Shown here: piece after piece, positions 42,327 to 43,781 of the stretch
How the letters are laid out: every line of letters begins with the position of its first letter
Numbering within the stretch: position 1 is the stretch's first letter
Source of the DNA: Deltaproteobacteria bacterium
Lineage (GTDB): Bacteria; JAMCPX01
NCBI GenBank assembly: GCA_023382265.1
Contig: JAMCPX010000026.1
Location: forward strand, 1 to 47,048
Length of the DNA: 47,048 nt
Direction: 5' to 3'
The notes under the pieces: model-generated
The model's database searches: none
Told to the model about the DNA's origin: nothing
What the model saw: only the letters and a program-made list of their open reading frames with translations
Translations under genes and position numbers: made by a program

Positions 42327-42971
42327 TTGGTAGAACGCATAGGTGCATTCGGAGGAAGTTTTAATCCTGTCCATTTTGGGCATCTGAGAACCGCAGAAGA
42401 GATCAGGGCAAGGTTCTCATTGTCAAAAATACTCTTTATCCCTACTTATGAACCACCGCATAAGCAGACAGCAGCATTATCATACAACCATAGAAAATCA
42501 ATGACAGCTCTTGCAATTATGGGCAACCCTTTTTTTGTACTTGAAAATATAGAAGAAAAACTGCCTGTTCCTTCATATACCTATAGAACAATGCAGGCTC
42601 TTATAAAATTATATAGATCTGATGCGGAGTTTTATTTTATAATGGGCGAAGACGATTTCAGCAACATCAATACATGGCATTCCCCATCTTTACTATTTTC
42701 ACTATGTAATATCATTGTTGTAACAAGGCATAATAAAGAAAGGCTTCCGGCTGAACTTGTACCCGTTGATTTAAAAGATGAGTTCTGGTATAAAGAAAGT
42801 GAAAGAGTTCTAATGCATAAAGGAGGTAGAAAAGTTTACTTATTGCAAATACCCATACTTGATATTTCTTCAAGTAGAATCAGAGAACTTGTGCAGAAAA
42901 ACCAATCAATCAATTATCTTACCCCTGAGCTTGTAATCGATTATATAAAGAAGGAGAATTTGTATCATTAA
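42327..42971 (+). CDS. nadD: Nicotinate-nucleotide adenylyltransferase
   Basis: NadD adenylates nicotinic acid mononucleotide on the route to NAD. The 214-aa protein starts at a TTG (42327), two bases after the proA stop, with AAGGGAG upstream. The alternative would lose the start motif GAFGGSFNPVHFGH, whose H16 and H19 bind the phosphates. The ISSSRIRELV motif near residue 187 is the second nucleotide signature. Its stop TAA (42969-42971) overlaps the proposed non-AUG start of rsfS, so translation of both is coupled. Confidence 0.95.
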   Translation: MVERIGAFGGSFNPVHFGHLRTAEEIRARFSLSKILFIPTYEPPHKQTAALSYNHRKSMTALAIMGNPFFVLENIEEKLPVPSYTYRTMQALIKLYRSDAEFYFIMGEDDFSNINTWHSPSLLFSLCNIIVVTRHNKERLPAELVPVDLKDEFWYKESERVLMHKGGRKVYLLQIPILDISSSRIRELVQKNQSINYLTPELVIDYIKKENLYH

Positions 42972-43314
42972 CTCCGCTTCCAGAGATTTTATAAAACACA
43001 TAAACAAGCTTTTAAGAGATAAACTGGCATTAGACATTATCATAATTGATATGCATGCTCATCTCGCTATTGCAGACTATTTTATCATTTGTTCAGCACA
43101 ATCGGAGAGACAGGCTATTGCTATCTCAGAGCATGTGAGGGATGAACTTGCCAAGAATGGCATAAAACCTATCGGGATCGAAGGAGTACGATACGGAAGA
43201 TGGATAGTAATGGATTATAATGATGTTGTTCTTCATATCTTTCTTGAGCCTATAAGGCGGTTTTACGATCTCGAAAGCCTCTGGTCAGACACGGAACGGG
43301 CAGCCGTAGAATAA
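42967..43314 (+). CDS. rsfS: Ribosome silencing factor RsfS, probable non-AUG start
   Basis: RsfS binds L14 on the 50S subunit and blocks subunit joining in poor conditions. The first ATG in frame (43051) would give only 87 aa and remove the N-terminal helix that all family members have. Upstream codons from 42967 encode that part (NSASRDFIKHINKLLRDKLALDIIIIDM), in line with the family pattern, and bring the length to 115 aa. There is no ATG, GTG or TTG between the in-frame stop at 42946 and 43051. AAGGAG (42951-42956) lies 10 bases before ATT (42967) and 7 before ATC (42964), so one of these is the likely start; CTG at 43024 is a weaker alternative. The C-terminal IADYFIICSAQSERQ and EPIRRFYDLESLWSD motifs are clear. 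The gene lies between nadD and rlmH, as usual. Confidence 0.88.
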   Translation: MNSASRDFIKHINKLLRDKLALDIIIIDMHAHLAIADYFIICSAQSERQAIAISEHVRDELAKNGIKPIGIEGVRYGRWIVMDYNDVVLHIFLEPIRRFYDLESLWSDTERAAVE

Positions 43315-43316
43315 TA

Positions 43317-43781
43317 ATGCTTATAAATATTGTGCCGGTAGGGCTTCCAAAGGACGCGAGTATAAAAGAGCTCCTAAATAAATATACAAATAGGATAAAA
43401 CCATATACTGAGCTCAGGCTTTTGCATGTAAAACCTGAACCGGTAACAAAACAAAATTCTAAGGTAGTACTTTTAAAAGAATCAAAAAGGATCACGGATA
43501 TTATGGGTTTTGGATATAATATAGTTTTTGATAGCCATGGTGAGATGATGGATTCTGACGTGTTTGCAAATTTTATTAATAAGCATATAATGACAGGCAC
43601 AAAGACTTTAAATATGATCATTGGCGGACCAATAGGCATTGATAACGGTGTAAAGCAAAAAGCGGATAGACTTTTATCATTATCAAAAATGACATTGCCG
43701 CATGAGCTTGCTCTGATAATGATTGTAGAGCAGACCTACAGGGCTTTTGCTATTATAAATAGATTACCATATATTAAATAG
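43317..43781 (+). CDS. rlmH: 23S rRNA (pseudouridine-1915 N3) methyltransferase
   Basis: RlmH is a SPOUT methyltransferase that modifies pseudouridine 1915 in 23S rRNA. The 154-aa protein has the expected size. The knotted SAM site is visible as MIIGGPIGID (about 100-109), followed by LSLSKMTLPHELALIMIVEQTYRAFAIINRLPYIK. The family usually ends in a Tyr-His motif; here it reads Tyr-Ile. It follows rsfS by 2 bases, as in many genomes. No Shine-Dalgarno sequence is obvious, which fits coupling. Confidence 0.95.
   Translation: MLINIVPVGLPKDASIKELLNKYTNRIKPYTELRLLHVKPEPVTKQNSKVVLLKESKRITDIMGFGYNIVFDSHGEMMDSDVFANFINKHIMTGTKTLNMIIGGPIGIDNGVKQKADRLLSLSKMTLPHELALIMIVEQTYRAFAIINRLPYIK

Follow-up and report, generated by a model that had tools for sequence, protein, structure and literature searches.

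Where does translation of rsfS begin when its reading frame opens without any of the usual start codons? This question is raised by the window, the stretch of 47,048 nucleotides analyzed here, in which rsfS (proposed CDS 42967..43314, + strand, 115 codons plus stop) lies between nadD and rlmH. The upstream neighbor, nicotinate-nucleotide adenylyltransferase (nadD, 42327..42971, +; NF000840, 173 bits against a cut-off of 150), has an apparent TTG start (42327-42329) directly behind the proA stop. The downstream neighbor, rlmH (43317..43781, +), has an ordinary ATG start, and its profile matches are full-length, although their scores fall below the cut-offs. Read directly in the rsfS frame from position 42946, the junction gives TAA AGA AGG AGA ATT TGT ATC ATT AAC TCC, while the end of nadD reads AAG AAG GAG AAT TTG TAT CAT TAA. 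The in-frame TAA (42946-42948, +) bounds the rsfS frame upstream, and between it and codon 29, an ATG at 43051-43053 (+), there is no ATG, GTG, or TTG. A Shine-Dalgarno motif, AAGGAG (42951-42956, +), is located inside the last nadD codons (Lys-Glu), 10 nt before an ATT codon (42967-42969, +) whose final T, at 42969, also opens the nadD stop TAA (42969-42971), so that the two genes overlap by 5 nt (ATTAA). These features of the junction had been described in a sequence-only reading of this DNA, and direct inspection bore them out. The mRNA around the rsfS start was found to have no unusual structure (z = 0.93).

The encoded protein is clearly RsfS. From residue 9 to 106, counted from ATT, it matches TIGR00090 with 110.4 bits (cut-off 56.9) over positions 2-99 of the 99-position profile, and it therefore belongs to the RsfS/iojap family (TIGR00090, PF02410), being above the curated cut-off over the full domain. 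RsfS is known to bind uL14 and to block the joining of ribosomal subunits (PMC7125091, PMC9503621), activities established for the Staphylococcus aureus and E. coli proteins (PMC7125091; PMC13246957), and its N-terminal region is already covered by solved structures. Automatic annotation would place the start at the ATG at 43051, the first standard start codon, or at another internal codon. A protein made in this way would lack the conserved helix and the first strand region; its Pfam score would fall from 106.6 to 89.7 bits, with a loss of 17 bits and of the first 24 profile positions. The ATG at 43051 occupies an internal Met/Val position, has no Shine-Dalgarno sequence, and is replaced by GTA in one relative (G001), and the alignment with E. 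coli RsfS begins well before it, at codon 7. A downstream start is thus very improbable. The sequence-only reading had estimated that such a start would remove about 28 conserved residues, which is true of only a part of this segment: residues 12-28 are conserved and include all of I12, L15, L16, D18, K19, A21, I27, and D28, which are invariant in the phylum, whereas residues 2-11 are variable across it.

The comparison with relatives locates the start more precisely. Nine genomes of the window's family are present in the collection searched, and searches at the order, class, and phylum levels return the same nine; among the relatives are four metagenome-assembled genomes (MAGs), three from the project DBS2-1 and one from FK_Sedi. 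The arrangement AAGGAG-N10-ATT is found at the same place in all nine, with no standard start nearby, and the first 39 rsfS codons of G001, a span that reaches into the conserved core, include no ATG, GTG, or TTG. In addition, residue 8 of E. coli RsfS aligns with residue 7 of the window protein, which means that ATT matches the known N-terminus within one residue. On the basis of this shared arrangement, of the lack of a standard start in G001, of the conservation of residues 12-28, and of the E. coli alignment, ATT is very probably the start codon of rsfS in this lineage. The other rare codon that had been considered, ATC (42964-42966, +), is not conserved, since the other eight genomes carry ACT or ACC directly ahead of ATT; of the two candidates proposed earlier, only ATT stands. 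An error of sequencing or assembly, which would have changed ATG to ATT, had been regarded as the main alternative, and the assembly behind the window is indeed a draft, in 73 contigs. However, the identical ATT occurs in nine separate genomes from at least two projects, and none of the aligned junctions carries ATG or GTG at the start position, which excludes this explanation. Comparison of the genomes thus indicates that an uncultured phylum uses the very rare ATT to start rsfS in each of its nine known members.

Why should such a codon be kept? It had been proposed that the overlap with nadD locks it in place: a change to ATG would cost nadD its stop, and the weak start would be a by-product without regulatory meaning. 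Seven of the nine genomes fit this idea, since their nadD stop (TAA or TAG) begins at the last T of ATT. In the other two, G006 and G007, nadD ends 3 nt later (ATT CGT AG and ATT CGT AA, respectively); its frame reads CAT TCG TAG or CAT TCG TAA, the final T of ATT is part of a serine codon, and a change of ATT to ATG would only replace this Ser with Ala. Both genomes nevertheless keep ATT, which means that the lock is not required in this lineage, as ATG was open to them at the price of one Ser-to-Ala substitution. The overlap between nadD and rsfS is 8 nt in G006 and 5 nt in the genomes with the stop at ATT. In other phyla, wherever nadD could be found, a gap of 8-111 nt separates its stop from the rare-start rsfS gene, and there is no overlap. 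Rare starts are therefore not confined to genes whose third start-codon base belongs to a nadD stop, and the lock is an improbable cause of the rare start. The overlap is better regarded as a secondary constraint, which may help to keep ATT in seven of the nine genomes. The A of ATT is fixed by nadD coding, as is the last T in these seven. This leaves free only the middle T, which is the wobble base of nadD's final or penultimate codon, along with the last T in the remaining two genomes. All nine genomes have the middle T, while the share of T at the wobble base of such codons is only 45-75%; the probability of this would be about 0.008 for independent genomes, which these relatives are not, so that, given their kinship, conservation of the wobble T is by itself modest evidence.

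A second possibility offered by the same junction is that rsfS has no start of its own, a NadD-RsfS fusion being produced instead by ribosomes that shift frame by +1 at the stop of nadD. In its favor, about 20 nt of open rsfS frame precede the nadD stop, and prfB likewise has a stop codon where the shift takes place. Nevertheless, a tRNA paired to CAU or UAU cannot pair again with AUU once it has moved by +1, as slippage of the prfB kind would need. The position of the stop is not conserved, being different in G006 and G007, the genes are apart in other phyla, and the Shine-Dalgarno motif is invariant at an initiation distance. Such a fusion was rejected for its lack of re-pairing, its moving stop, and the separate genes of other phyla, and we consider it hardly credible.

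Independent initiation at a rare codon, as favored here, has counterparts in several other phyla. In a census, a local RsfS profile was applied to all loci and a standard start was sought from the upstream stop as far as model position 12. ATG, GTG, and TTG were absent from 26 of 204 distinct closed rsfS frames, in comparison to 1 of 188 control genes from the neighborhood (nadD 1/98, rlmH 0/26, obg 0/9, proA 0/50, proB 0/5). Six of the 26 come from the window's lineage; the rest show ATA, ATC, ATT, CTG, or (in Nitrospirota) TTA behind a Shine-Dalgarno sequence, with two cases unclear. In a family-spread sample of 121 rsfS genes from the whole of Bacteria, mostly one per family, the starts were ATG in 58 (48%), TTG in 38 (31%), and GTG in 16, while nine had none of these and carried ATA, ATC, or ATT instead. 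The difference from the controls is significant by Fisher's test for the family-spread sample (p = 0.001), for the whole set (p = 3e-7), and for the set without the window's lineage (p = 1.5e-5), with the caveats that independence of the rows is incomplete, that many loci come from MAGs, and that the choice among standard start codons is heuristic. At the same loci, ATG was used and a standard start was lacking in 55% and 12% of rsfS genes, respectively, compared to 70% and 1% for nadD, 68% and 0 for rlmH, and 92% and 0 for proA; obg, a control with few cases, has ATG in only 3 of 9. The lack of a standard start, the fixed Shine-Dalgarno-ATT arrangement, and the rare rsfS starts in several other phyla are thus features of the sequences themselves.

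Another gene with a rare start in the window's lineage is infC. An E. coli parallel, in which infC uses a rare AUU, had been drawn for rsfS from the window alone, and it proved closer than could be known then, as infC of the lineage itself appears to start with ATA. In seven genomes of the family, infC has no standard start and carries an invariant ATA behind a purine-rich stretch, in the context TAC ATA GAA AAG GAA (loci L120, at G000:C28:9041-9541, L119, and L121-L125); ATA is the probable infC start there. The infC gene of G005 (L118, G005:C69:1598-2098) differs from the infC of its family and may sit on a foreign contig in the MAG; it too has an apparent ATA start (GGAGGTGA CCT ATA GCT). 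When infC starts were compared between genomes with rare-start and standard-start rsfS, rare codons were seen in both sets, with no clear association in this small sample, as is expected if rare infC starts are old and general.

These data can be joined in a model of regulation by initiation factor IF3. In this model, the AAGGAG within the final nadD codons would direct translation of rsfS from the AUU at 42967. IF3 rejects initiator pairings other than those with AUG, GUG, and UUG, and initiation at the rsfS AUU would be low, an effect partly offset by the Shine-Dalgarno motif and by ribosomes that end nadD translation close by. When free IF3 falls relative to 30S subunits, for instance because immature 30S particles tie it up, initiation at AUU would increase, and the level of RsfS with it. 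Given the AUA of infC in the same genomes, the anti-joining factors of the 30S subunit (IF3) and of the 50S subunit (RsfS) would then answer the same signal. By analogy with known IF3-controlled genes, we consider it fairly likely that rsfS of this lineage has an AUU start whose output is set by IF3, being low and rising as free IF3 falls. It is known that IF3 represses infC in E. coli and the GTC-initiated sigR in Streptomyces (PMC5472188), and that AUU and AUA starts in S. aureus yield about 10-30% of the output of AUG (PMC13009471). In E. coli lacking RimM, 30S precursors accumulate, and both IF3 and RsfS rise and stay on the subunits; the 2026 study reporting this calls the way in which RsfS adjusts to 30S precursors unknown (PMC13246957). 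An IF3-sensitive rsfS start, if true, would provide a simple mechanism for such a response. The co-induction in E. coli itself would need another cause, as the UUG start of rsfS in that species is largely tolerated by IF3 and control through it would be weak.

The anatomy of the junction fits a low output of RsfS and its coupling to nadD translation, both of which had been suggested from the sequence, and these could exist without any sensing of IF3. AUU would then simply set a low and constant level of RsfS. Low dosage could be favored, since RsfS blocks subunit joining (PMC7125091), and rsfS is rich in TTG, GTG, and rare starts in many lineages. On the other hand, discrimination by IF3 is general in initiation, so AUU is expected to be IF3-sensitive, and infC of the same genomes uses AUA. 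A passive weak start of this kind is rather unlikely, though the IF3-controlled reading has no stronger competitor. A broader proposal, put forward tentatively, is that rsfS and infC form a small and old start-codon regulon, repeatedly given codons that IF3 rejects, with lower free IF3 raising both products. The rare starts of the two genes, both seen in other phyla as well, suggest that the levels of the two proteins that hold the ribosomal subunits apart are determined by start-codon checking. The presence of AUU on a second ribosome factor throughout a phylum, together with rare starts in unrelated phyla, would be a strong hint that the choice of start codon is a means to control subunit joining and not noise.

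To our knowledge, few genes have been experimentally shown to use a start rejected by IF3. The closest likeness to the window rsfS is E. coli infC, which combines an AUU start, a good Shine-Dalgarno sequence, and a product that keeps subunits apart; unlike in infC autoregulation, RsfS would not be the sensor, and IF3 would act on rsfS in trans. Streptomyces sigR resembles rsfS as a gene other than infC with a conserved rare start and a strong Shine-Dalgarno sequence that was missed by annotation, but it encodes a sigma factor, begins with GTC instead of ATT, and has been demonstrated experimentally (PMC5472188). AUU or AUA starts, like those of rsfS and infC here, are also found in E. coli pcnB (AUU) and in S. 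aureus cvfC1 (AUU) and ccpN (AUA); the two S. aureus starts are conserved and give about 10-30% of the AUG output, while all three genes differ in having other functions and no described overlap with an upstream stop (PMC13009471). The rsfS gene of E. coli (ybeB) shares the N-terminus and has a weak UUG start (PMC10917681), which is, however, a standard codon, and cobC lies between nadD and rsfS there. Like genes of the infC, pcnB, and sigR kind, rsfS has no AUG, GUG, or UUG at its start, as assigned by comparison, and its rare codon and Shine-Dalgarno motif are kept in the relatives (9/9). By this likeness, rsfS would join the genes with IF3-discriminated starts. A literature search, which reached few subscription papers, found no report joining RsfS with a non-canonical start, nor a description of the broader rsfS pattern. 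Gene callers that allow only ATG, GTG, and TTG can be expected to truncate or miss rsfS in whole lineages.

Several further observations were made among the loci of the census. In a class of Nitrospirota, many rsfS genes have no ATG, GTG, or TTG, and a strong Shine-Dalgarno sequence is followed at a fixed distance by CCT-TTA (L087:2956-2958, L105, L115, L266, L289-L292, L301, L309, L321, and others). The TTA is nearly invariant at the wobble position, and in sister genera the corresponding codon is ATA or ATC. The pattern resembles a conserved UUA start of rsfS, an apparent start codon that does not come close to matching the initiator anticodon. In a few relatives, ATG, TTG, or GTG lies two codons further upstream, where the ancestral start may have been located. 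In two genomes of an unrelated lineage (L211 and L230, of G116 and G240), a GAGGTGGG stretch is followed by ATC ATT AAT at the beginning of rsfS, which repeats the ATC-ATT pair of the window. Finally, in the genome G022 (L014, frame opening at base 765), it is nadD that has no ATG, GTG, or TTG before its conserved GGTFDP motif, and the sequence GCA CCC ATT GGT ATT CTG GGT suggests another ATT start.
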